In this document: positions 8,118 to 19,649 of the stretch, in pieces | Layout: every line of letters starts with the position of its first letter | Position numbering within the stretch: the first letter of the stretch is position 1 | Assembly: GCA_017405785.1 (NCBI GenBank) | Contig: JAFQZR010000018.1 | Span: forward strand, 1 to 64,000 | Origin: Erysipelotrichaceae bacterium | Lineage (GTDB): Bacteria > Bacillota_I > Bacilli_A > Erysipelotrichales > Erysipelotrichaceae | Reading direction: 5' to 3' | DNA length: 64,000 nt | The notes under the pieces: model-generated | The model's input: only the letters and a program-made list of their open reading frames with translations | The model's database searches: none | Told to the model about the DNA's origin: nothing | Program-made: the position numbers and the translations under genes

Positions 8118-9803
8118 ATGATACGCAGAAGGCTGATAATCGTTAACATCGTTATTCTGACTCTGACCTTAGGCCTGGCAACCATCTTTGAAACCAGGGC
8201 ACTTAAGAGTCTTTTATATCGTGAAAACACCATTTCCTATAACAGCATGATTACTTCTGCACATGAATCCCTGCGGAAGATCTTTGAACAGGGAGAAGAC
8301 AGACTGCTTATTGTCTGTGCCAACAGACAACTGCAGGGACTTATCAAAGATTCACTGCCGGAAAAAGAAGCATTGGATGATACATTGAACACCCTGGCAT
8401 CCATCATGGATGTGGAAAGAATAACCGTCTATCCGGTAAGAGGAACGGATGTCTATACCTGGGATAATGAGGCCGGTATTTATCATGTCGAGGAAAACGG
8501 CCTGTATAACTTTGTGCTGGACTATTCCTACGACTGGAGTTTCCGCCCGGATAATGTTCCGGTGGTCAGAGTTACCAGAGCCATTTACTGCATTGATAAT
8601 ATCGAAGAGATAATAGGTATTGCCTCGCTGGATATTTCATTAACGGAATTCACGGAGATAATCTATTCCTTCAAGGGTAACAACGCTGATGACTACATGT
8701 GTCTTCTTGATGGGAACAATGAATATCTGCTTCCATCCAATAAGACAGGAAAACTGGACATTGAAGAAGCTGAAGGCGGTACAATAGGTACTGATGTTAC
8801 CACTGACCGTGATGTTGTTATGGTAAGTAACAACTTCCGCCAGAATGACTGGAAACTGGTAGCGGTTCTTTCCGGTTCGGTTCTGTATAAGGACAGCCAG
8901 AACAGAATAAGAATGACCTTACTGGCAGCGGCCATACTGGAAGTAATAGGCATCATATTTACATTCCTGGTAACAAGCCATATTACCAATCCTATCAAGA
9001 ATCTTTCCAATGAGATTCATAACGTCAGAGTCCGGAAGAAGTTTGATCACATTAATACACCTGAAGGCAGCACAGGTGAGATAAGGGAACTCTATGACAG
9101 TTATAACCAGCTGATCGACCAGGTCAACCGGTCAATGTCTGAAGTAGAAGAATTCTCCCGTAAGGATGCTGAGAATGAATTCAAGCTGTTACAGGCGGAA
9201 ATCAATCCGCACTTCCTTTACAATACGCTCAATACCATTTCCTGGATGGCGGCTAATAATCAGGATGAGGACATTCAGAAGGTTGTCATTGCCTTGGTTG
9301 GGTTATACAGAATCAGCCTTAACAATGGTAAGTCAACACTGCCGGTAAGACTGGAAATGGAACATGTTAAGAATTATCTGGAAATCATGTCGTTCCGTTA
9401 TCCTGACCGCTATGAAACGGAATTCCACATTGCGGAAGATACATCTGAACTCATAGTAACCAAGCAGATATTACAGCCTCTGGCTGAAAATGCTCTGATG
9501 CATGGCTTTGTACAGTCCCAGGAAAAGGGCAAAATAATCATCTCCAGCTACATTGAAGGTGATGATCTGGTACTGGAAGTAGCCAATACCGGAACGGAAG
9601 TTGAACTTGACAAGGTCAATAAACTGCTCAATAATGATGCCGAACTGTCACAGAAACATTACGGCATCAGAAATGTCAATGACAGACTGATGATGTACTA
9701 TGGACCTGACTGCCATCTGCAGTATGATCTGGAAGACGGCATGACAGTTGTAAGAATGAAGCTTCCTCTGGAAAAGGTGAAGACGGAGAACTGGTATGAG
9801 TGA
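8118..9803 (+). CDS. sensor histidine kinase, LytS/YesM type
   Basis: A 561-residue membrane kinase. TM1 covers about residues 7-25, an extracytoplasmic sensing domain about 30-255, TM2 about 262-286, then a HAMP linker. The His_kinase domain (PF06580 type) has the phospho-acceptor His365 in the motif INPHFLYNTLN. A HATPase domain follows (QPLAENALMHGF, and a G-rich GIRNVNDRLMMYYG box). This class usually senses nutrients outside the cell and works with an AraC-type regulator, here the next gene, which overlaps by eight bases. The pair stands directly before the Liv-URO-D-CyuA operon, so that operon is its likely target (inference). Confidence 0.9.
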   Translation: MIRRRLIIVNIVILTLTLGLATIFETRALKSLLYRENTISYNSMITSAHESLRKIFEQGEDRLLIVCANRQLQGLIKDSLPEKEALDDTLNTLASIMDVERITVYPVRGTDVYTWDNEAGIYHVEENGLYNFVLDYSYDWSFRPDNVPVVRVTRAIYCIDNIEEIIGIASLDISLTEFTEIIYSFKGNNADDYMCLLDGNNEYLLPSNKTGKLDIEEAEGGTIGTDVTTDRDVVMVSNNFRQNDWKLVAVLSGSVLYKDSQNRIRMTLLAAAILEVIGIIFTFLVTSHITNPIKNLSNEIHNVRVRKKFDHINTPEGSTGEIRELYDSYNQLIDQVNRSMSEVEEFSRKDAENEFKLLQAEINPHFLYNTLNTISWMAANNQDEDIQKVVIALVGLYRISLNNGKSTLPVRLEMEHVKNYLEIMSFRYPDRYETEFHIAEDTSELIVTKQILQPLAENALMHGFVQSQEKGKIIISSYIEGDDLVLEVANTGTEVELDKVNKLLNNDAELSQKHYGIRNVNDRLMMYYGPDCHLQYDLEDGMTVVRMKLPLEKVKTENWYE

Positions 9804-10854
9804 TATTAAGGTAGTTGTAGCCGATGATGAGATATTGGCATTAAACGGCATCAGTAACCTGATTGACAGAACTGAAGGTTATAAGGTCGTAGGCAGGGCC
9901 GAAAACGGCCGGGAATGTCTCAGACTGATCAGGGAAAACAACCCGCAACTGGTTGTTACCGACATCAAGATGCCGGTGATGAACGGACTGGAACTGATTG
10001 AGACCTGTGTGGCTGAGAATCTGGCTGTCAGTGTTATTGTTGTCAGTGCCTATGATGACAGGGATTATTTAAGAGCGGCCATCAGGTGCCCGCTGGTATA
10101 TGACTATCTGTTCAAGCCTTTCCGTAATGAAGAACTCTTTGCGGCTTTACAGGGTGCCGGAAGCTTCCAAAAGAAATATGCCGGTGAAATAAATGATGAA
10201 TCTGGCATGGCCTTACTGGTAACCCTGATCTTCAATAATGACTTTACATCTCTGCAGAACTACATGAATGAATACTTTGTCAGGGATGATCTGTCTTTAC
10301 AGGAAATGAAAAACCAGTGCTACGGCTGGATAATGCATATTCACAGTACGGTCTTCGCCGATAACAAGACCAGATCCTTTGACTCCCGCCGGACCATGAA
10401 GAAGGTCTTTGAGGCCAGAGACAGGGAAGAACTGCAGGAAGTCATGACAGAGTATTTAAGAGGCTGCTGCGACAGGTTCGTATATAATGACAACGTCACG
10501 GTACTGGTCAAGTCATGTCTGCGCATTGTCCGGAGTGAATACGGCAATGAAGATCTTAACCTTAATTACTGTGCCAATAAGCTGGCAGTGACACCGAGTT
10601 ATCTGTCAGGGCGATTCTCCCGTGACATGGGACAGAGCTTTTCCAACTATCTGAATACTCTGCGAATGGAAAAGGCCGGGGAGATGCTGAAGAATGTATC
10701 TCTGAAGGTCTATGAAGTAGCAGAAAAAGTCGGTATCTCCGATGTCAGTTACTTCAACAAACTGTTCAGAGAATATGAAGGGAAAACCCCGTTGCAGTAC
10801 CGCAAGGGGATCATGGAAAGCGATTATGAAAACGAAAATGAGGACCGGCATTAA
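9796..10854 (+). CDS. response regulator, YesN type (receiver plus AraC HTH)
   Basis: A 352-residue protein. The receiver domain (about 1-120) has the acidic pair D10-D11, phospho-acceptor D56 in VVTDIKMPVMNG and the conserved Lys in YLFKPF. A linker leads to a C-terminal AraC-family double helix-turn-helix (about 245-340; LAVTPSYLSGRFSRDMG, EVAEKVGISDVSYFNKLFRE, TPLQYRK). It probably activates nutrient-uptake genes when phosphorylated by the kinase encoded immediately upstream. Its stop codon lies in the loop of the following terminator hairpin. Confidence 0.92.
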   Translation: MSDIKVVVADDEILALNGISNLIDRTEGYKVVGRAENGRECLRLIRENNPQLVVTDIKMPVMNGLELIETCVAENLAVSVIVVSAYDDRDYLRAAIRCPLVYDYLFKPFRNEELFAALQGAGSFQKKYAGEINDESGMALLVTLIFNNDFTSLQNYMNEYFVRDDLSLQEMKNQCYGWIMHIHSTVFADNKTRSFDSRRTMKKVFEARDREELQEVMTEYLRGCCDRFVYNDNVTVLVKSCLRIVRSEYGNEDLNLNYCANKLAVTPSYLSGRFSRDMGQSFSNYLNTLRMEKAGEMLKNVSLKVYEVAEKVGISDVSYFNKLFREYEGKTPLQYRKGIMESDYENENEDRH

Positions 10855-10866
10855 CCGGTCCTTTTA
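10841..10866 (+). terminator. terminator of the two-component operon
   Basis: AGGACCGG (10841-10848) pairs with CCGGTCCT (10855-10862), followed by TTTTA. The loop contains the TAA stop of the response-regulator gene, so the terminator overlaps the coding end. Confidence 0.8.
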
Positions 10867-10928
10867 CATAGTAAAAAAGTCAAAAAAAGCATAGATTTTT
10901 ATTATTTATCCACGATTTCACAACATAT

Positions 10929-10966: not shown

Positions 10967-11476
10967 ATGAGCAAAATAACTAATAAGCCGACTGTTACTG
11001 ATAATTACGCATGTAATGTCAGAAGAGCCGCCATTGAACAGCGTGGCAGATGGGCCGCAGGTTTTTACGTTGAAGCCAGAGAAGAAGGAATCGATCTGGA
11101 ACCAATCATGCGCAAGGCCATCCGTAAGATCGGTCTGGAAGGCGGACGGAATGAAAAGAAGAAATACTTCAATGATGAGCAGGTAACTGCCAGCGGCTAC
11201 GCTCATTATTTCACGGAAAAGGCTCTGAGTGAGACTTTCGAAAAGAGTCTTGATTACGATACGGAAGATGAAGCTGTTGTGACACTTCACTACTGTGCAC
11301 TGTTAAGTGCCTGGCAGAAGATGGGCTTAAGCGATGAAGACTGTGCCAAGTTATGCGATATCGCCATGGAAGGCGACCGCGGCATAGCCGAAGGCGCCGG
11401 CCTGGACTTCGAACTGGAAGGCACTCTGGCTGAAGGATGCAAGTGCTGCACCCTCAGATACAAAACACGTAAATAA
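10967..11476 (+). CDS. L-2-amino-thiazoline-4-carboxylate (ATC) hydrolase-like protein
   Basis: A 169-residue protein resembling the PF14196 family. Features are the N-terminal RRAAIEQRGRWAAGFYVEA helix, a central helical region, and the C-terminal FELEGTLAEGCKCCTLRYK with clustered cysteines that are typical and probably catalytic or metal-binding. In Pseudomonas the named family member takes part in opening 2-amino-thiazoline-4-carboxylate on the way to L-cysteine; most Firmicutes members are untested. It is first in an operon that ends with a cysteine desulfidase, which supports a role in sulfur-compound breakdown. Start chosen at MSKITN; the upstream ribosome site is weak (ACGAGG). Confidence 0.75.
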   Translation: MSKITNKPTVTDNYACNVRRAAIEQRGRWAAGFYVEAREEGIDLEPIMRKAIRKIGLEGGRNEKKKYFNDEQVTASGYAHYFTEKALSETFEKSLDYDTEDEAVVTLHYCALLSAWQKMGLSDEDCAKLCDIAMEGDRGIAEGAGLDFELEGTLAEGCKCCTLRYKTRK

Positions 11477-11518
11477 GGTCGTTAGTGGGCAAACCACAGT
11501 AATAAAGAAGGAGGAACT

Positions 11519-12766
11519 ATGAAAAAGTTATTAAGTTTATTATTAGTAGTCTTAATGCTGATCACATCATTCGGTTGTACAAAGCCTGAAGACAAGGTTG
11601 AATCAGCTGCAGACGAAAACGGCGATTTCCACATTGCAGTAAGCTTACCTTATACAGGTACAAATGCTTCTTATGCTGAATACATTGATATGGGTATCAA
11701 GGTTGCTCTTAAGAAGCTGGAAAATGAAGGCTGGTTAAACGGCGATGGCACTGGCAAGATCATCTGCGATTACTATGATGACAAAAACGATGCTACCGAA
11801 GGTGCAACAATCGCAACCAAGGTAACCACAAGCACTGAACCTTACTATCTGTTGGAAGTTGGTTCATTTGCTTCAGGCGTTTCTTATCCATGTGCAAACA
11901 TCTATAAGGAAGCCGAAATGGTACAGTATGCCTTAACATGCTCAAAGTCAGACTATCTGGCAACAAGCGGTGACTGGGGATTCTCTCTGTCAATGACACA
12001 GGATACAGCTGCTGCCCGTGTTGCTGCCTATGACATCAAGTACTTGAACTTTGACAAGATCGCTCTGATCTACTCAAATGACTCATGGGGTCTGGAAACA
12101 TGCAAGTTCTACACTGAAACAGCTGAAAAGTTAGGCGTTCAGTTACTGGCAAGCGAAAAGTATGATGATGGCCAGCAGGACTTCACTTCAATCTTGACCA
12201 AGATCAAGCAAACCAACCCTCAGTTAGTTATGTGCTTCTGCGCTGAAAACGACATCGTTCTGATCAGACAGCAGGCTGAAACTGTCGGCTTAAGCTGCGA
12301 ATGGCAGGTATCTTCAAAGTCACGTACATCTAACGTTTTACAGAACTTAGGTGACTTAGGTGAAGGCTTATACGGTATCTATGCCAAGACAAAGGACTTA
12401 AATGACCCTGTATATATCGAATACGAAAAGTTATACAAGGAAATGTATCCTCAGAAGTTTGCTGATGACAACAACACCACTCAGAAGTATGCCGACCAGG
12501 GCTACAACTGCATGATGACTGTTATCTGGGCTATCAAGGAAACCATGAAGACCGGTACAACCCGTCAGGCATTCAGAGATAAGCTCGCTACATTAACAGA
12601 CTTCCCAGGCGTTCAGGGTAAGTTAACATTCGCTACCGGCCGTAAGATTTTACAGATCCAATATCTGTCAAGAATCGTTCGCGGCGAAGACGGCAAGTTA
12701 AAATGGGTCAACTTCGAAGATATCCTCGATACATTCGATGTTGATGCTGTAGCCGGATTAAAATAA
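11519..12766 (+). CDS. ABC transporter substrate-binding lipoprotein, LivJ type
   Basis: A 415-residue lipoprotein. The signal peptide ends in a lipobox (LITSFGC, Cys20). The mature protein has the type I periplasmic-binding fold of branched-chain amino-acid receptors (IAVSLPYTGTNASYAEYIDMG, IICDYYDDKNDATEGATIATKV, KIALIYSNDSWG). It would capture the substrate of the LivHMGF importer that follows. AAGGAGG precedes the ATG. A strong hairpin after the gene (12788) probably lets it be made in excess over the permease genes. The ligand cannot be read from sequence; the downstream cysteine desulfidase suggests a sulfur amino acid or relative. Confidence 0.88.
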   Translation: MKKLLSLLLVVLMLITSFGCTKPEDKVESAADENGDFHIAVSLPYTGTNASYAEYIDMGIKVALKKLENEGWLNGDGTGKIICDYYDDKNDATEGATIATKVTTSTEPYYLLEVGSFASGVSYPCANIYKEAEMVQYALTCSKSDYLATSGDWGFSLSMTQDTAAARVAAYDIKYLNFDKIALIYSNDSWGLETCKFYTETAEKLGVQLLASEKYDDGQQDFTSILTKIKQTNPQLVMCFCAENDIVLIRQQAETVGLSCEWQVSSKSRTSNVLQNLGDLGEGLYGIYAKTKDLNDPVYIEYEKLYKEMYPQKFADDNNTTQKYADQGYNCMMTVIWAIKETMKTGTTRQAFRDKLATLTDFPGVQGKLTFATGRKILQIQYLSRIVRGEDGKLKWVNFEDILDTFDVDAVAGLK

Positions 12767-12787
12767 TAAATATTTATTAAAAAAACA

Positions 12788-12826
12788 GATAGACTTCACT
12801 TCAACTGAATGAAGTGAAGTCTATTT
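12788..12826 (+). terminator. strong intercistronic hairpin between binding protein and permease
   Basis: A perfect 14-bp stem (12788-12801 with 12810-12823), loop AACTGAAT, followed by a T run to 12826. Because the operon continues with a good ribosome site at AAAGGAG, this is best read as a partial terminator or mRNA-stabilising stem that raises binding-protein output relative to the permease. Confidence 0.75.
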
Positions 12827-12845
12827 TACAAGAAAGGAGAATTAT

Positions 12846-13733
12846 ATGGCCAAGTTTCTGCAGATTCTTGTCAACGGTATATCGCTGGGATCGATATATG
12901 CGCTGACTGCCATAGGATATTCATTGATTTATTCAATTTTGCAGCTTATTAACATGTCCAATGCTGCTGTATTTTTGACAAGTGCTGTTATTTTCTATGC
13001 CTTATACAGTTCAATAACAGCCGGGCAGGTTGCCCTTACTTTCATTCTTACCTTACTGGCAGCAGGAGCCTTAGGGTACGTAATTGAATTAGTCGCCATC
13101 AGACCTATCCGTGAGAAGGGCGACTCCAATACTTATGCACTGATTTCTTCAATCGGTGTCAAAACCATACTTGAACAGATCTGCCAGGGAACATTCGGAA
13201 GTGAGATCAAGTCATTCCCGACACTGCTCGCCGGCAAGTATATAGATATCATGGGGGCCAGAACAAGCGCTATTCAGATAATCATCATCGTGGTTACACT
13301 GAGTATTCTGTTTGTCATGAACTGGTACACCCAGCATAACAGAGTCGGCAGAGGTTTAAGAGCTCTGTCTCAGAACCTCAATGCCTGCCACCTGATGGGT
13401 ATGCCTGTAAATACTCTGATCGGTGTGTCCTTTGCCGTAGGAAGCATCCTGGCTGCAGTCAGCGGTGTTGCCTATTGCATGTACTTAAGCAGTATTTCCA
13501 TTTCTGTAGGTGCCGCAATTGGTAATAAGGCGTTCGCGGCTACGGTTTTAGGCGGTATCGGTGTCCTGAAGGGTGCCGTTGTCGGTGGTTACATTCTGGC
13601 AGTAATCGAAAGCTTTGTTGCCGGATACTGGTCAATGTCAGCGATGAACTTCGTTTCATTCTCTGTAATCATCATTGTCCTGATCATCAAGCCTACCGGT
13701 ATATTTGGTAAGAAAGAGCAGTATAAGGTGTAG
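12846..13733 (+). CDS. livH: branched-chain-type ABC permease, LivH
   Basis: A 295-residue integral membrane protein with about eight spans and the LivH pattern: LVNGISLGSIYALTAIGYSL at the start, RGLRALSQNLNACHLMGMPV as the coupling-loop region, and a C-terminal GGIGVLKGAVVGGYIL. It forms the channel with LivM. AAAGGAG lies seven bases upstream. The specificity of such permeases is broad and set by the binding protein. The gene is in the middle of the nine-gene operon. Confidence 0.9.
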   Translation: MAKFLQILVNGISLGSIYALTAIGYSLIYSILQLINMSNAAVFLTSAVIFYALYSSITAGQVALTFILTLLAAGALGYVIELVAIRPIREKGDSNTYALISSIGVKTILEQICQGTFGSEIKSFPTLLAGKYIDIMGARTSAIQIIIIVVTLSILFVMNWYTQHNRVGRGLRALSQNLNACHLMGMPVNTLIGVSFAVGSILAAVSGVAYCMYLSSISISVGAAIGNKAFAATVLGGIGVLKGAVVGGYILAVIESFVAGYWSMSAMNFVSFSVIIIVLIIKPTGIFGKKEQYKV

Positions 13734-13736
13734 TAT

Positions 13737-14732
13737 ATGAAGAACACAGCATTATTAAAGAAACACCTGTTATTTATCATTATTGCCGTCAGTATGCTTG
13801 TTGCGCCGCTGTTTACCAACGCCTATCAGCTGCGTATCCTTATTTCCGCTGCACTGGCAATGATCTTCGCCATGAGCCTTAACCTTCTGATGGGCATAGG
13901 AGGAACAGTCTCATTCGGCCATGCTGCCTTCTACAGCATCGGAGCTTATACCACGGCGGTACTGTGGTATCATTTCAAGACTCCGTATTCAACCAACTTC
14001 ATTCCGGTAATTCTCATCACTGGCCTGGCAGGCTTGTTACTGTCACTGCCTATGAGCCGTATTACAGGAAGATACGTTACGATCATTACCCTGTCATTTG
14101 CTGAGATCGTTAACCTGATCATCAAGAACTGGGACCCTGTAACCCTGGGACAGATGGGTATTGTCGGTATTCCGTCAGTCAATCTGTTTGGCCATGTTCT
14201 GAAGGATAAGAGAGAATTCTTCTATCTGACGATGCTGTTTGTCATTCTGACATATATCATAATGAACTGGCTGGTTGATTCCAAACTGGGCAGAAACCTC
14301 AGAGCAATCAGTAATGATGCGATCGCTGCTGAAGCCATGGGTATTAAGATATTCCCTTATAAGGTCATCGTCTTTACGATCTCAGCGATCTTTGCGGGTA
14401 TTGCAGGTTCTCTGTATGCACATCTGATGTCATATGTTGAACCGGCAACATTCAATGCCAATCTGTCATTTGAGTGCATCAGCATGGTTGTTATCGGCGG
14501 ATTAGGCAATTTCGCCGGTACGATGGTCGGTGCTCTGTTCCTTAAGATCCTGCCTGAATACCTGAGACAGTTTGAATTCCTGTTCAAATACCGTATGATA
14601 GCTTACGGTCTGGTTCTGGTAATCGTCATGTGGATCAACCATTCAATTCCTGGTACCAAGCTGAAAAATGCAATCAGTACCAGAATCAGTGCTCTGTTCC
14701 GCAAAAAGAGCGCAGAAGCTGAGGAGGTGTGA
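13737..14732 (+). CDS. livM: branched-chain-type ABC permease, LivM
   Basis: A 331-residue membrane protein with LivM hallmarks: LNLLMGIGGTVSFGHAAFYSIGAY, the coupling loop KLGRNLRAISNDAIAAEAMG, and VIGGLGNFAGTMVGA near the C terminus. It pairs with LivH; the gap to livH is three bases. The stop codon lies in the ribosome-site region of livG, implying translational coupling. Confidence 0.9.
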   Translation: MKNTALLKKHLLFIIIAVSMLVAPLFTNAYQLRILISAALAMIFAMSLNLLMGIGGTVSFGHAAFYSIGAYTTAVLWYHFKTPYSTNFIPVILITGLAGLLLSLPMSRITGRYVTIITLSFAEIVNLIIKNWDPVTLGQMGIVGIPSVNLFGHVLKDKREFFYLTMLFVILTYIIMNWLVDSKLGRNLRAISNDAIAAEAMGIKIFPYKVIVFTISAIFAGIAGSLYAHLMSYVEPATFNANLSFECISMVVIGGLGNFAGTMVGALFLKILPEYLRQFEFLFKYRMIAYGLVLVIVMWINHSIPGTKLKNAISTRISALFRKKSAEAEEV

Positions 14733-14734
14733 TC

Positions 14735-15550
14735 ATGAGTTTATTATCTGTTAAGAATTTAACTATCAGATTCGGCGGTCTGGTGGCTGTCGATAATCTG
14801 AGTTTCGAAATGGAACCTGGTAAGATCACGTCTCTTATCGGCCCTAACGGTGCCGGCAAGACAACCGTCATCAACATGTTAACCGGTTTCTACACTCCTA
14901 CGGGAGGAAAGATCATTCTGCATGAAAAAGATGAGAAGGGCAATGAGGTTGAGGTAGACATTACCGGCAACAGCACTGACCAGGTCGTCAAGAAAGGCTT
15001 AAGCCGTACCTTCCAGAACATCAGACTGTTCTCCAACATGACAGCTCTCGATAACATTCTGGTCGGAATGCAGCATAGAATCGAATACGGTTCATTCCTG
15101 TCTCTGTTCCCTAACGGCAAGAAGAACAAATGGGAAAAGCAGGCCAGGGAAGAAGCCATGGAAATCTTAAAGAAGGTTGGTCTGGAAGACGCTGCCAACG
15201 AAAGAGCTACCTCACTTCCTTACGGCAAGCAGAGAAAGCTGGAAATCGGCCGTGCCTTGGCATCCCATCCGAAGGTATTGTTACTGGATGAACCGGCAGC
15301 GGGCATGAACCCGGCTGAAAAGAAGGAACTGAGTCAGTTCATCAGATCATTGCTGAATGAAGTAGACGGTATCCTGTTAATTGAACATGACATGAAGCTT
15401 ATCATGGACATCTCTGACAAGATCGTTGTTCTGAACCACGGCGCCAAGATCTGTGAAGGAAAGCCGGAAGAAGTTCAGAACAATGAAGAAGTCATTGAAG
15501 CATATCTGGGAAAGAAAGGAGTACAGCGCAATGTTACTGGAAGTAAATAA
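14735..15550 (+). CDS. livG: ABC transporter ATPase, LivG
   Basis: A 271-residue ATPase. Walker A is GPNGAGKTT, the signature region LPYGKQRKLEIGRAL, Walker B VLLLDEPAAGMN, and the switch His lies in IEHDMK. The degenerate signature LPYG in place of LSGG is usual for LivG. The start at 14735 is preferred over GTG 14729 because GAGGAGG lies at a normal distance. The last 20 bases overlap livF. Confidence 0.92.
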   Translation: MSLLSVKNLTIRFGGLVAVDNLSFEMEPGKITSLIGPNGAGKTTVINMLTGFYTPTGGKIILHEKDEKGNEVEVDITGNSTDQVVKKGLSRTFQNIRLFSNMTALDNILVGMQHRIEYGSFLSLFPNGKKNKWEKQAREEAMEILKKVGLEDAANERATSLPYGKQRKLEIGRALASHPKVLLLDEPAAGMNPAEKKELSQFIRSLLNEVDGILLIEHDMKLIMDISDKIVVLNHGAKICEGKPEEVQNNEEVIEAYLGKKGVQRNVTGSK

Positions 15551-16238
15551 CCTACATACCTATTACGGTAATATCAAGGCTTTACGCGGTGTCTCCTTCC
15601 ACGTAAACGAAGGTGAGATCCTGTCCTTCATCGGTGCCAACGGCGCCGGTAAGAGCACCCTGATGAACACCCTGGCAGGTACCTTAAAGCCAAAACAGGG
15701 ACAGATCATCTTTCAGGGTGAAGACATCACCAAGATGAGCCCGAGAGACAGAGTCAGAAAGGGATTCATTCTGTGTCCTGAAGGCAGACAGATCTTCCCT
15801 AAGTTCACGGTTGAGGAAAACCTGTTAATGGGTGCTTATACTGTACAGGATAAGAACCTGATCAAGCAGAACTATAACAAGGTATTTGAACTGTTCCCGC
15901 AGATCAAGGACCGTCAGAAACAGATGGCAGGTACCTTATCAGGCGGTGAGCAGCAGATGCTGGCAATTTCCCGCGCCTTAATGGGAAACCCGCATATCCT
16001 GATGCTGGATGAACCGTCATTAGGCTTAAGCCCGATCCTGGTTGAACAGATCTTTGCCTTAATTGAAGAAATCAATAAGCAGGGAACCACCATTCTGCTG
16101 GTTGAGCAGAATGCCATGGCAGCCCTGGAGATATCCAACAGAGCCTATGTTCTGGAAACCGGTGAAATCACCCTGACCGGAACAGGTAAGGAACTGCTGG
16201 AAAACGAAATGGTCGTTAAGAGCTATCTTGGCGGCTAG
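15531..16238 (+). CDS. livF: ABC transporter ATPase, LivF
   Basis: A 235-residue ATPase with Walker A GANGAGKST, Q-loop CPEGRQIFPKFTVEENL, signature LSGGEQQMLAISRAL and Walker B ILMLDEPSLGLS. The start ATG 15531 follows AAAGGAG and gives the usual LivF N terminus (LLEVNNLHTYYG). A longer frame would run back inside livG and has no support. It completes a full importer with the binding protein, LivH, LivM and LivG. Confidence 0.92.
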   Translation: MLLEVNNLHTYYGNIKALRGVSFHVNEGEILSFIGANGAGKSTLMNTLAGTLKPKQGQIIFQGEDITKMSPRDRVRKGFILCPEGRQIFPKFTVEENLLMGAYTVQDKNLIKQNYNKVFELFPQIKDRQKQMAGTLSGGEQQMLAISRALMGNPHILMLDEPSLGLSPILVEQIFALIEEINKQGTTILLVEQNAMAALEISNRAYVLETGEITLTGTGKELLENEMVVKSYLGG

Positions 16239-16254
16239 ACAGGAGGTGTGAAGT

Positions 16255-17325
16255 ATGATGACTTCCAGTGAACGCATCAGAGCCATGATAAACCATCAGC
16301 CGTTTGACCGTATTGGCGTGGCAGGCTGGGTTCACATGCCTTTTGTCGATCATAATGTTACTGACATGACCAGGGCAACCATAATGGTTACAGATTACTG
16401 CGGCTGGGACTTTGTCAAGATCATGACTACCGGACACTATGTACCGGAAGCCTTTGGTGCTGACATTACCCTTTCCAAGGATCCAACCCATTGGAACGGT
16501 GTCATTCACCGTTACCCGATCACCAATCTGGAAGAACTGAAGAAGATTCCGGTTCTGACTAAAGATAACTGGGTGTTCAAGAGGGAAGTAGCCATCGCCA
16601 AGAACCTGGTAGAACACTACAAAGGTGAAAAACCGGTAATAGCCACGATCTTTACACCGCTGACCTGTTTACAGGAAATGATGGAAAGAGGCACTCATAA
16701 CAAGACCATTCCTTTAATGGAAAACCATAAGGAAGAAGTTCATGAAGCTCTGAGAAAACTGGTTGAAACCAACAAGAACTATCTTGATGCGCTGATTGAA
16801 GAAGCTCATATTGACGGCATCTTCTATGCGCATCAGTACATAACCACCAATGTGATCACTGAAGAACTGTTTGATGAGTTCTGCACTCCATATGATCTGG
16901 AATTACTGGATTATATCAAGGACAGAACCTGGTTCAATGTTCTCCATGTTCACGGTGAAAACAATCTGATGTTTGACAAGGCCATGTTATATGATGTACA
17001 GGCTTACAGCTGGGAAAACTGTGTTCCTGGTCTGGAGTCTGACACCATCAGTACTGTGGCCAAAGTCAGAGAAATGACTGACAAGGTTCTTATTACGGGT
17101 CTGGCCAGACATTATGACTACTACAACGATAACAACGACCGTGATGAACTCAAGGAGTTCTTCCGTAAGCGTTTATTGACTGTACTGGATGAAAGTCAGG
17201 ACAAGAGAGTGGTATTTGCGCCTGGATGTGCCTTACCAATGGATGTCGACAGGTACGTATTCACATTAATGAAGGAAGTAGTGGAAGAAGAGGGATACAT
17301 CGATGGTAAGCAGGGAAGTTTATAA
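16255..17325 (+). CDS. URO-D superfamily methyltransferase-like protein (copy 1)
   Basis: A 356-residue protein of the uroporphyrinogen-decarboxylase superfamily, on the MtaA/CmuA-like side rather than HemE. It starts MTSSERIRAMINHQPFDRI, the usual opening of these proteins. Likely Zn ligands are H231 and H233 (LHVHGEN) and C325 (APGCALP). Corrinoid:thiol methyltransferases of this group normally use H-x-C plus a distant Cys; here the first Cys position is His. No corrinoid protein is encoded nearby, so classical methylcobamide chemistry is not shown. AGGAGGTG precedes the start. The end overlaps the CyuA gene by 23 bases. Confidence 0.8.
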   Translation: MMTSSERIRAMINHQPFDRIGVAGWVHMPFVDHNVTDMTRATIMVTDYCGWDFVKIMTTGHYVPEAFGADITLSKDPTHWNGVIHRYPITNLEELKKIPVLTKDNWVFKREVAIAKNLVEHYKGEKPVIATIFTPLTCLQEMMERGTHNKTIPLMENHKEEVHEALRKLVETNKNYLDALIEEAHIDGIFYAHQYITTNVITEELFDEFCTPYDLELLDYIKDRTWFNVLHVHGENNLMFDKAMLYDVQAYSWENCVPGLESDTISTVAKVREMTDKVLITGLARHYDYYNDNNDRDELKEFFRKRLLTVLDESQDKRVVFAPGCALPMDVDRYVFTLMKEVVEEEGYIDGKQGSL

Positions 17326-18574
17326 TGAGTATACGGCTCTTCTTAAAGAGGAGCTGATTGAAGCGACAGGCTGTACCGAACCGATCGCTTTAGCTTTGGC
17401 AGCAGCCAAGGCCAGACAGACCCTCGGTCAGATGCCGGAAGAAGTAGAAGTCTACTGCAGCGGCAACATTGTCAAGAATGTAAAGGCTGTCGTTGTTCCT
17501 AACAGCGGCGGATTAAAAGGCATTAAAGTAGCGGCTTTACTGGGTATTGTCGCCGGTGACGCTGATGCTTCCTTACAGGTCATCAGCCATGTTGATGATG
17601 AAGGACGTAAGGCACTTAATGAAGCTCTGGAACATGTCAGAGTAAAGGTCATTCTGGCTGAAAGAGTACCGCCTCTGTACATCCGGGTTAAAGTCAGAAA
17701 CGGCTATAATACTGCTGAGATCGAGATAGCCCTAGCTCATACCAATGTGACCAGAGTTATCAAGAACAAGGAAGTTCTTTACAGTCAGGATTATGACAGA
17801 GATGCGATTGCCGGCATTGAAACCGACAAGATGAACATCAATGACATCATTGAGTACGCCGAAACAGTTGATCTTGATGATATCAGAGAGACCATTGAGA
17901 GACAGATCGCGGACAATACCGCCATCAGTAATGAAGGTTTAAGGAATAACTGGGGCGAAAGAGTCGGCCAGACACTTCTGGAAGAATACGGTAATAACAT
18001 TATTATCAGAGCCAGAGCCGCAGCCGCAGCCGGCAGCGATGCCAGAATGAACGGCTGTGCCATGCCGGTAGTTATCAACTCCGGTTCAGGCAACCAGGGC
18101 ATGACGGTATCCTTACCGGTTATAGAATATGCCAGGGAACTGAACTGTGATCATGATAAGCTGTTAAGAGCACTGGTACTGGCAAACCTGATGGCTCTGC
18201 ATCAGAAGAAATACATCGGATACTTAAGTGCCTATTGCGGTGCGGTAAGTGCCGGGGCCGGAGCAGCCTGCGGAATCTGCTGGCTGCTGGGCGGAACCAG
18301 AAAACAGATCGCTGACACTCTGGTAAATGCCATGGCTACCATTGGTGGAATGGTCTGTGACGGTGCCAAGAGCAGCTGCGCAGGCAAGATATCGCTCAGT
18401 ATCGAAGCCGGCATACAGGGTATGAAAATGGCCATGAAGGGCTTAAGATACAGACCAGGTGAAGGCATCGTAAAGGAAGACGATGACGAAACGGTCAGAG
18501 AAGTCGGCAGAATGGGTAATGCAGGCATGAAGGGCACTGACCTGGAAATTCTGCATATAATGCTGGAGGAATAA
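17303..18574 (+). CDS. cyuA: L-cysteine desulfidase (CyuA/UPF0597 family)
   Basis: A 423-residue protein of the UPF0597 family (serine-dehydratase alpha-like). Typical blocks are IEATGCTEPIALALAAA with C24, SGNIVKNVKAVVVPNSGG, and GGMVCDGAKSSCAGK with C352 and C359. CyuA is an Fe-S enzyme that splits L-cysteine to pyruvate, ammonia and sulfide; the cysteines seen fit the [4Fe-4S] site. Gene order places it between two URO-D proteins, and coupling is tight: a 23-base overlap upstream and a TAATG stop/start downstream. It gives the best clue that the operon handles a cysteine-yielding compound. Confidence 0.85.
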   Translation: MVSREVYNEYTALLKEELIEATGCTEPIALALAAAKARQTLGQMPEEVEVYCSGNIVKNVKAVVVPNSGGLKGIKVAALLGIVAGDADASLQVISHVDDEGRKALNEALEHVRVKVILAERVPPLYIRVKVRNGYNTAEIEIALAHTNVTRVIKNKEVLYSQDYDRDAIAGIETDKMNINDIIEYAETVDLDDIRETIERQIADNTAISNEGLRNNWGERVGQTLLEEYGNNIIIRARAAAAAGSDARMNGCAMPVVINSGSGNQGMTVSLPVIEYARELNCDHDKLLRALVLANLMALHQKKYIGYLSAYCGAVSAGAGAACGICWLLGGTRKQIADTLVNAMATIGGMVCDGAKSSCAGKISLSIEAGIQGMKMAMKGLRYRPGEGIVKEDDDETVREVGRMGNAGMKGTDLEILHIMLEE

Positions 18575-19566
18575 TGGTTACAAAGAAGGAAAGAATCTAC
18601 AATGCCGTTAACGGATTAAAGACCGACAGGCAGCCATATGCCATGTGGACACATCTGCCTGGCATCGACCTTGATCCGGTTAAGCTGGCTGAAACCACAT
18701 ATCAGTTCTTTAAGGAATATGACATTGATCTGATCAAGACCATGAACAACGGCATGTATGCCATTGAGGATTTCGGCTGTGAAGTTGATTATTCCGATAT
18801 CGCCAAAGGCGGTGTTGCCAAGGTCGTTAAGACTCCGGTCAATACCATTGATGACTGGAAGGACATCAAGCCGGTATCAATTGAGGATTCCGTAGCTTTG
18901 AAGAGAGAACTGTATTCACTGAAAGTGTTGCTGGATCTTGTCAAAGATGATGAGGTACCTGTCTTGTTTACGGTATTCTCACCGTTTACCACTGCCAACA
19001 AGCTGTGCGGCGGTAAGATACTTGAGCACATTAAAACAGGGAAGACAGAAGACATTCACAGACGGTTACAGATAATCACTGATGTAACGGTCGAAGTTGT
19101 TAAGGAAGCCAACAGACTGGGAGCTTCAGGTGTATACTTCGCTACCCAGATGAGCAACTACTCAGTATGTTCTGAAGAAGTGTTCAGAGAATTCGGTTCA
19201 CCTTATGACATTCAGGTACTGGAAGCCTCTGAAGGCTTTGCGGACGCTGTTCACTGCCATGGTTCAGATATCATGTACGACATTCTTAAGGAATATCCGG
19301 TAGATATCTTCAACTGGCACGCCGGTGAATCATTACCGACCATAGAAGAAGCCAAAAAGATGAACAAATGCTTAATGGGCGGTATTATCAGAGGCGACAT
19401 TACTGACAGTAACCACCAGCGGATCAGAGAACAGATCCAGCATTGCTGGGATGTCATGGGTGGTGTTCATCATATCCTGTCACCGGGATGTGTCATCAGG
19501 TATCCTCTGAATGAGGTAACGCTGAAATACATAAAGGAAGCTATTGAAGAAGTAACTTCCAAATAG
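18574..19566 (+). CDS. URO-D superfamily methyltransferase-like protein (copy 2)
   Basis: A 330-residue relative of the protein at 16255, only moderately similar. It opens MVTKKERIYNAVNGLKTDRQP and carries the probable Zn site H227-C228-H229 (VHCHGSD) with C306 (SPGCVIRYPLN). Both copies share the H-x-H-G and PGC pattern, so they probably act on related substrates or as two halves of one reaction. The ATG overlaps the cyuA stop (TAATG). It is the last gene of the operon, closed by the terminator at 19568. Confidence 0.8.
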   Translation: MVTKKERIYNAVNGLKTDRQPYAMWTHLPGIDLDPVKLAETTYQFFKEYDIDLIKTMNNGMYAIEDFGCEVDYSDIAKGGVAKVVKTPVNTIDDWKDIKPVSIEDSVALKRELYSLKVLLDLVKDDEVPVLFTVFSPFTTANKLCGGKILEHIKTGKTEDIHRRLQIITDVTVEVVKEANRLGASGVYFATQMSNYSVCSEEVFREFGSPYDIQVLEASEGFADAVHCHGSDIMYDILKEYPVDIFNWHAGESLPTIEEAKKMNKCLMGGIIRGDITDSNHQRIREQIQHCWDVMGGVHHILSPGCVIRYPLNEVTLKYIKEAIEEVTSK

Positions 19567-19567
19567 T

Positions 19568-19599
19568 AAAAGAAGACAACAGGAATGTTGTTTTCTTTT
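19568..19599 (+). terminator. terminator of the Liv/URO-D/CyuA operon
   Basis: A 14-bp stem (19568-19581 with 19586-19599, one G-T wobble), loop GGAA. The T-rich right arm provides the tract. Confidence 0.8.
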
Positions 19600-19649
19600 A
19601 GTCATGAAGGTTATGGTATGATGATAAGTAGAAAAGAGAGGTGGTATCT

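Follow-up and report, generated by a model that had tools for sequence, protein, structure and literature searches.

Degradation of 2-amino-thiazoline-4-carboxylate (ATC) in Pseudomonas leads through cysteine to pyruvate, sulfide, and ammonia and employs an ATC racemase, an L-ATC hydrolase, and a carbamoylcysteine amidohydrolase; ATC itself arises from cystine and cyanide (PMC9291117). In E. coli, CyuPA is a dedicated pair for cysteine import and desulfidation (PMC9040844). The Type 1 mlp clusters of anaerobes combine several URO-D-family proteins with sulfur-metabolism genes (PMC10418091). Here we analyze a nine-gene operon with features of all of these systems, located at positions 10967–19566 of a 64,000 nt stretch of contig JAFQZR010000018.1 from an Erysipelotrichaceae bacterium; the whole stretch is referred to as the window, and coordinates are positions within it, all on the forward strand. 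The operon consists of nine co-directional open reading frames, which encode, in order, a PF14196 protein named as an ATC hydrolase, a LivJHMGF importer, a first URO-D protein (URO-D1), a CyuA-type cysteine desulfidase, and a second URO-D protein (URO-D2). A listing of open reading frames together with a profile search confirmed the placing and the families given in a preliminary description made from the DNA letters alone: besides PF14196, the matches were PF13458 (LivJ), PF02653 twice, LivG/LivF-type ABC ATPases, PF01208 twice, and PF03313.

The comparison with described systems reveals both overlap and difference. With the Pseudomonas pathway, the operon shares an ATC-hydrolase-named protein and the conversion of cysteine into pyruvate, sulfide, and ammonia; however, no racemase and no carbamoylcysteine amidohydrolase were found among its nine genes, which instead include a Liv-type importer and two URO-D proteins. 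With E. coli cyuPA, it shares import and a CyuA-type desulfidase, which is 33% identical to the E. coli enzyme and has its catalytic residues, but there the importer is CyuP, and neither a URO-D nor a PF14196 protein accompanies it. The mlp clusters resemble the operon in having several URO-D-family proteins alongside sulfur-metabolism genes in anaerobes, whereas they also carry a corrinoid protein and a Ram/RACE activase, neither of which the operon has, and their metal site is His-Cys-Cys rather than His-His-Cys. As the preliminary description had supposed, no pathway with this exact gene set was found in the literature, and no paper joined an ATC hydrolase or a cysteine desulfidase with URO-D proteins; coverage was partial in both cases, and this is not proof of novelty.

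We infer, tentatively and with somewhat less than even confidence, that the operon is a regulated import system in which corrinoid-free metal enzymes release cysteine, or something closely analogous to it, from a derivative that is cyclic or blocked and pass it to CyuA. According to this proposal, a kinase encoded next to the operon would sense the external compound. LivJHMGF would import a small non-branched-chain carboxylate, perhaps one without a free alpha-amine, such as a thiazoline-like ring or an N-blocked cysteine derivative; the PF14196 protein would open or bind the ring; URO-D1 and URO-D2, acting as corrinoid-free metal (probably zinc) enzymes, would strip the substituent from sulfur; and CyuA would break down the cysteine thus released, yielding pyruvate, ammonia, and sulfide. 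The Pseudomonas ATC pathway follows a comparable logic and counts in favor of this proposal. The preliminary description had also pictured an operon for import and degradation with sulfide release: the import, the degradation, and CyuA hold up, the sulfur theme probably does as well, and its methyl-transfer mechanism does not. If the substrate is found, the operon would point to a source of sulfide in gut bacteria.

The sulfide-releasing end of this proposal, desulfidase activity on L-cysteine, is well supported by residue conservation, since the catalytic and cluster residues of CyuA (17303–18574) are intact. The cluster ligands C287, C329, and C336 of M. maripaludis CyuA (MmCyuA; 9he0) correspond to C312, C352, and C359 of the window protein, and the catalytic C23 and E25 correspond to C24 and E26, within the motif GCTEP; all five are invariant in nine orthologues. 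In MmCyuA, the C23/E25 dyad is reported to be essential and to occur in no enzymes other than CyuA, serine dehydratases lacking it (PMC12647591). The alignment shows no counterpart of the GCTEP region in E. coli TdcG, to which identity is 18%. The positions of R223, N239, and K339, which are active-site neighbors in MmCyuA (PMC12647591), are also R, N, and K (K362) in the window protein. The gene is therefore a genuine CyuA-type desulfidase, as had been proposed from the sequence. No second CyuA was found in the genome carrying the window (G000) or in G099, G139, G122, and G170, and CyuA is present in every orthologous locus seen.

We next consider the importer, in which all five LivJHMGF-family subunits are present, making a complete Liv-type system: the lipoprotein substrate-binding protein LivJ (11519–12766), the permeases LivH (12846–13733) and LivM (13737–14732), and the ATPases LivG (14729–15550, with its start probably at the ATG at 14738) and LivF (15528–16238). 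The nearest structures to LivJ are 3hut and Agrobacterium Atu2422 (3ip5), both at low identity. In the alignment to Atu2422, LivJ keeps S119 and F117 and has A138/T140 at the family's A-x-T position; in 3ipc, alanine is aligned with the Atu2422-type phenylalanine. We take the conserved LivJ-family serine to hold the carboxylate of the ligand and the phenylalanine to narrow the Atu2422 pocket, and D226 of Atu2422 is presumably the acidic residue that clamps the ligand amine. In LivJ, the D226 position is K267, which is invariant in nine orthologues. Selectivity for leucine, isoleucine, or valine, named in the preliminary description as an outcome that would count against its proposal, is unlikely. 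The invariant lysine in place of the amine-holding acid instead points to a small carboxylate without a free alpha-amine as the predicted ligand, such as a derivative of cysteine that is ring-closed or N-blocked.

The importer subunits also bear on the idea that this is an ordinary branched-chain amino-acid importer to which unrelated genes became attached by chance. LivG, LivF, LivH, and LivM are indeed nearest to LivHMGF models, as that idea would have it, but their scores fall below the cut-offs of those models, and the LivJ pocket differs as described above. Moreover, the set is kept in two genera, under purifying selection and through a rearrangement that preserved it (see below). Such conservation speaks against chance, and we find this explanation scarcely credible.

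URO-D1 (16255–17325) and URO-D2 (18574–19566) both belong clearly to PF01208 and share about 25% identity; the first five genomes tested contain no URO-D members besides these two. Each has an H-x-H...C metal site, H230-x-H232...C324 in URO-D1 (numbered from the ATG at 16258) and H227-x-H229...C306 in URO-D2, and this site is present in both proteins in all nine orthologues; the metal bound there is probably zinc. In UroD-superfamily S-methyltransferases, the zinc ligands are His-Cys-Cys (PMC10418091). An AlphaFold model of URO-D1 (mean predicted local distance difference test [pLDDT] score 76, predicted template modeling score 0.82) matches the M. mazei methylcobalamin:CoM methyltransferase (4ay7/4ay8) best, followed by true URO-D and MetE, and there are weak NCBIfam matches to MtaA and MtbA. 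These matches favor the view that MtaA/CmuA-like URO-D proteins shuttle a methyl group between a thiol compound and a carrier, either corrinoid or folate, in the manner of mlp clusters, and the preliminary description had proposed methyl transfer of the MtaA/CmuA type.

We nevertheless consider methyl transfer of this kind very improbable. The NCBIfam scores are far under the curated cut-offs, and the site is His-His-Cys, not His-Cys-Cys, in every orthologue. Domain searches detected no B12-binding domain, whether PF02310 in five genomes or PF02607 in eight (three of them near complete), and no methylenetetrahydrofolate reductase (MTHFR) in the six genomes tested. As controls, 14 genomes were searched in the same way, and PF02310 was positive in 12, PF02607 in 9, and MTHFR in 11. 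Three of the tested genomes have low contamination and a completeness of 90% or more, and the rest are partial metagenome-assembled genomes (MAGs); the absence is strongest for G000, G099, and G170. Lack of both a B12-binding domain and MTHFR makes corrinoid- or methyl-folate-based transfer by the URO-D pair unlikely. MetE-like methylation from methyl-folate was rejected as well: MTHFR was absent from the six genomes, and PF01717 occurred in two of eight, not including the window's genome.

A bolder suggestion, which we regard as doubtful, is that the URO-D pair, with its His-His-Cys metal sites, forms a corrinoid-free, importer-coupled branch of the superfamily that cleaves a C–S or C–N bond of a cyclic or blocked cysteine derivative in a new reaction and thereby feeds CyuA. 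If true, the catabolic route would be previously undescribed, and it would have cousins in lactobacilli, Aerococcus, and Alphaproteobacteria. Most methyltransferases of the URO-D superfamily depend on corrinoid chemistry; here a strongly conserved pair, linked to an importer and a desulfidase, occurs without a detectable corrinoid protein or MTHFR. If its substrate is found, the pair would show what B12-free URO-D proteins can do, and such proteins recur beside importers in other phyla.

Membership of the first gene product (10967–11476) in PF14196 stands (E = 7e-18, 66.2 bits against a curated cut-off of 28.1). The family is grouped by sequence with HNOB and V4R domains and has three conserved cysteines (PMC5847659); the operon proteins all have C110, C130, and C161, the last two of which are also invariant in nine diverse PF14196 members. 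The predicted fold is V4R/Bet3-like: the model (pLDDT 82) has matches to Bet3/TRAPP and weaker ones to V4R sensor domains (PoxR/DmpR) and H-NOX. The same authors note that ATC hydrolase cleaves the thiazoline C–S bond (PMC5847659), and ATC or another thiazoline is a candidate substrate. PF14196 is too diverse, however, for the family name to fix any substrate, and the earlier naming of the protein as an ATC hydrolase was, in its substrate, an over-reading, given the many unrelated contexts of the family and the V4R-like fold. We caution against naming such genes ATC hydrolase, or their URO-D neighbors MtaA-like, from a family match alone.

The V4R-like fold also fits a simpler explanation, in which the compound scavenged or fermented is either cysteine or a simple S-alkylcysteine. 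LivJ would take it up, the URO-D pair would remove the alkyl group, CyuA would degrade the cysteine, and the PF14196 protein would serve as a sensor or chaperone and not as a hydrolase. We judge this quite improbable. For a ligand with a free amine, the invariant lysine of LivJ stands where we presume the amine-holding acid to be, and PF14196 genes elsewhere accompany importers beside metabolic genes; in Azospirillum, for instance, a LivJHMGF-type importer lies between two PF14196 genes. In favor of such scavenging are the resemblance of the PF14196 model to Bet3, and more weakly to the ligand-binding V4R domains of PoxR/DmpR, with a link between these families in the literature, and the precedent of E. 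coli CyuPA (PMC9040844).

Other PF14196 genes were observed as follows. In Cetobacterium somerae (NZ_CP143320, 458865–466229; L060), one lies within a run of 4-hydroxybutyrate genes beside the dipeptidase PepV, a setting that suggests this member acts on something very different. The window's own genome contains two adjacent PF14196 paralogues elsewhere (L051, 9173–10452; G000:C23:171173–172452). They were rejected as part of the pathway, because no URO-D, Liv permease, or binding-protein gene lies within the surrounding 20 kb.

Several observations weigh against our preferred reading, the release of imported cysteine from a cyclic or blocked derivative. PF14196 is a large and diverse family, with up to 12 copies in one related genome (G552), and its members occur elsewhere among 4-hydroxybutyrate genes (Cetobacterium) and in a sugar-phosphate context, a SIS-domain/PfkB cluster (E. 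coli plasmid). The operon encodes no enzyme for decarbamoylating N- or S-carbamoylcysteine, so there is no full ATC pathway here. Our view of the LivJ pocket depends on a low-identity alignment and on presumed residue roles in Atu2422, and the URO-D1 model is of moderate confidence around the putative metal site. Finally, CyuA is less conserved than URO-D1, with a mean identity of 66% versus 79%. Our wording is tentative because the operon has no carbamoylcysteine amidohydrolase, PF14196 is so broad a family, and the ligand is a prediction.

Some of these points would also be expected if the operon degraded a compound that is sulfur-free or unrelated to cysteine, with CyuA acting on another beta-substituted amino acid, the URO-D and PF14196 proteins acting on the compound, and the sulfur link deriving from family names only. 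Chemically varied PF14196 contexts, clusters elsewhere that join URO-D to importers without CyuA, and the weaker conservation of CyuA relative to both URO-D1 and the importer are consistent with this idea. It conflicts, however, with the invariance of the CyuA-specific Cys/Glu dyad and cluster cysteines in nine orthologues and with CyuA being part of the set at all orthologous loci seen, and we consider it unlikely.

The preliminary description had suggested looking for the same neighborhood in other genomes, and it proved to be conserved in relatives. Of 245 genomes sampled from the family, 10, belonging to two genera, carry URO-D genes of the operon type, and the set occurs in nine genomes besides the window's, with pairwise identities of 57%–98% for the nine gene products. 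The gene order is the same in G099, G170, G554, and G568, with a two-component gene pair in front. G556 has all nine genes, and the two-component pair was not detected within the stretch examined; contig ends truncate the loci of G139, G576, and G580, whose remaining genes agree with the operon order. In G122 (L049, G122:C6), URO-D2 has relocated from the end of the operon to a position 2 nt before the kinase gene; that it moved and yet was kept argues that URO-D2 shares the operon's function. The flanking genes tested from the window (for an FAD protein and an HTH protein) had no match in the more distant loci, their sharing being limited to the closest relative. Because the set recurs while the tested flanks do not, the neighborhood is not due to chance. 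Between the window and G099, dN/dS ranged from 0.019 (URO-D1, the lowest) to 0.155 (kinase), implying purifying selection on every gene tested. Pairwise distances between orthologues tracked those of URO-D1 (r = 0.71–0.96 across genes), in agreement with the view that the set may be inherited as a unit.

A scan with URO-D1, whose reach is close relatives, gave three loci, all in Erysipelotrichaceae MAGs, two of them labeled RUG. We take this label to denote rumen genomes, and some carriers are probably from the rumen; as speculation, ATC formed from cystine and cyanide could matter there. No URO-D1 relatives at E ≤ 1e-25 were found outside the window's genome in a 392-genome phylum sample.

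Directly upstream of the operon lies the two-component pair (8118–10854), which the preliminary description had omitted. It consists of a sensor histidine kinase (8118–9803) with His_kinase/HATPase_c domains, LytS/YesM-like, and a response regulator with an AraC-type HTH (9796–10854), syntenic with the kinase gene. The pair belongs to the locus, since it precedes the operon in G122 as well as in the four genomes with the same gene order, and it probably controls the operon.

Strong hairpins bear out the terminators that had been proposed on either side of the operon, one at the boundary with the response regulator (10838–10872, z = −5.4; similar hairpins occur in L046 and L048) and one 3′ of URO-D2 (19564–19604, z = −7.0). 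The terminator hairpins are placed at 10838–10866 and 19567–19601, respectively. Within the operon, the first gaps are 42 nt and 79 nt, and those thereafter range from −20 to +20 nt. The 79 nt gap, between livJ and livH, contains a conserved hairpin with a 17-pair stem (12787–12826, z = −7.4). Four other loci have a hairpin in the corresponding position; among the five loci compared, the G122 stem is unrelated in sequence, so the element is conserved in structure, not sequence. It may act in processing or attenuation and so separate the binding protein from the remaining genes. An Rfam search of the window gave no match.

URO-D proteins coupled to importers recur in distant bacteria, and the clusters of L. 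kefiri and Nicoliella, like the Azospirillum genes described above, count in favor of our preferred reading. An L. kefiri plasmid (NZ_CP094504, 51947–56594) resembles the operon in having a URO-D protein, an amino-acid ABC importer, and a PF14196 protein in one run, but its importer is of the polar-amino-acid family, its single URO-D protein has H-x-C, and it lacks CyuA. Identity to the window proteins is 23% for URO-D and 31% for PF14196, and a query with the L. kefiri URO-D protein gave no match in a 295-genome phylum sample searched without a positive control, a negative that carries no weight. Relatives of URO-D2 accompany a methionine-type ABC importer in Aerococcus tenax (39% identity) and tripartite tricarboxylate transporters in Microvirga and Gemmobacter. 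No corrinoid gene is annotated in the importer-coupled URO-D stretches shown, for which the plasmid gene tables are incomplete. In Gemmobacter fulvus (NZ_CP076363, 240914–247584; L057), the URO-D gene and the tripartite tricarboxylate transporter lie with genes for Rid, PLP cysteine-synthase-family, and octopine-dehydrogenase-family proteins, and a sulfur link is possible. On a plasmid of the bee-associated lactobacillus Nicoliella spurrieriana (NZ_CP093360, 304657–306756; L075), an amino-acid ABC importer is preceded by a tandem pair of URO-D genes.

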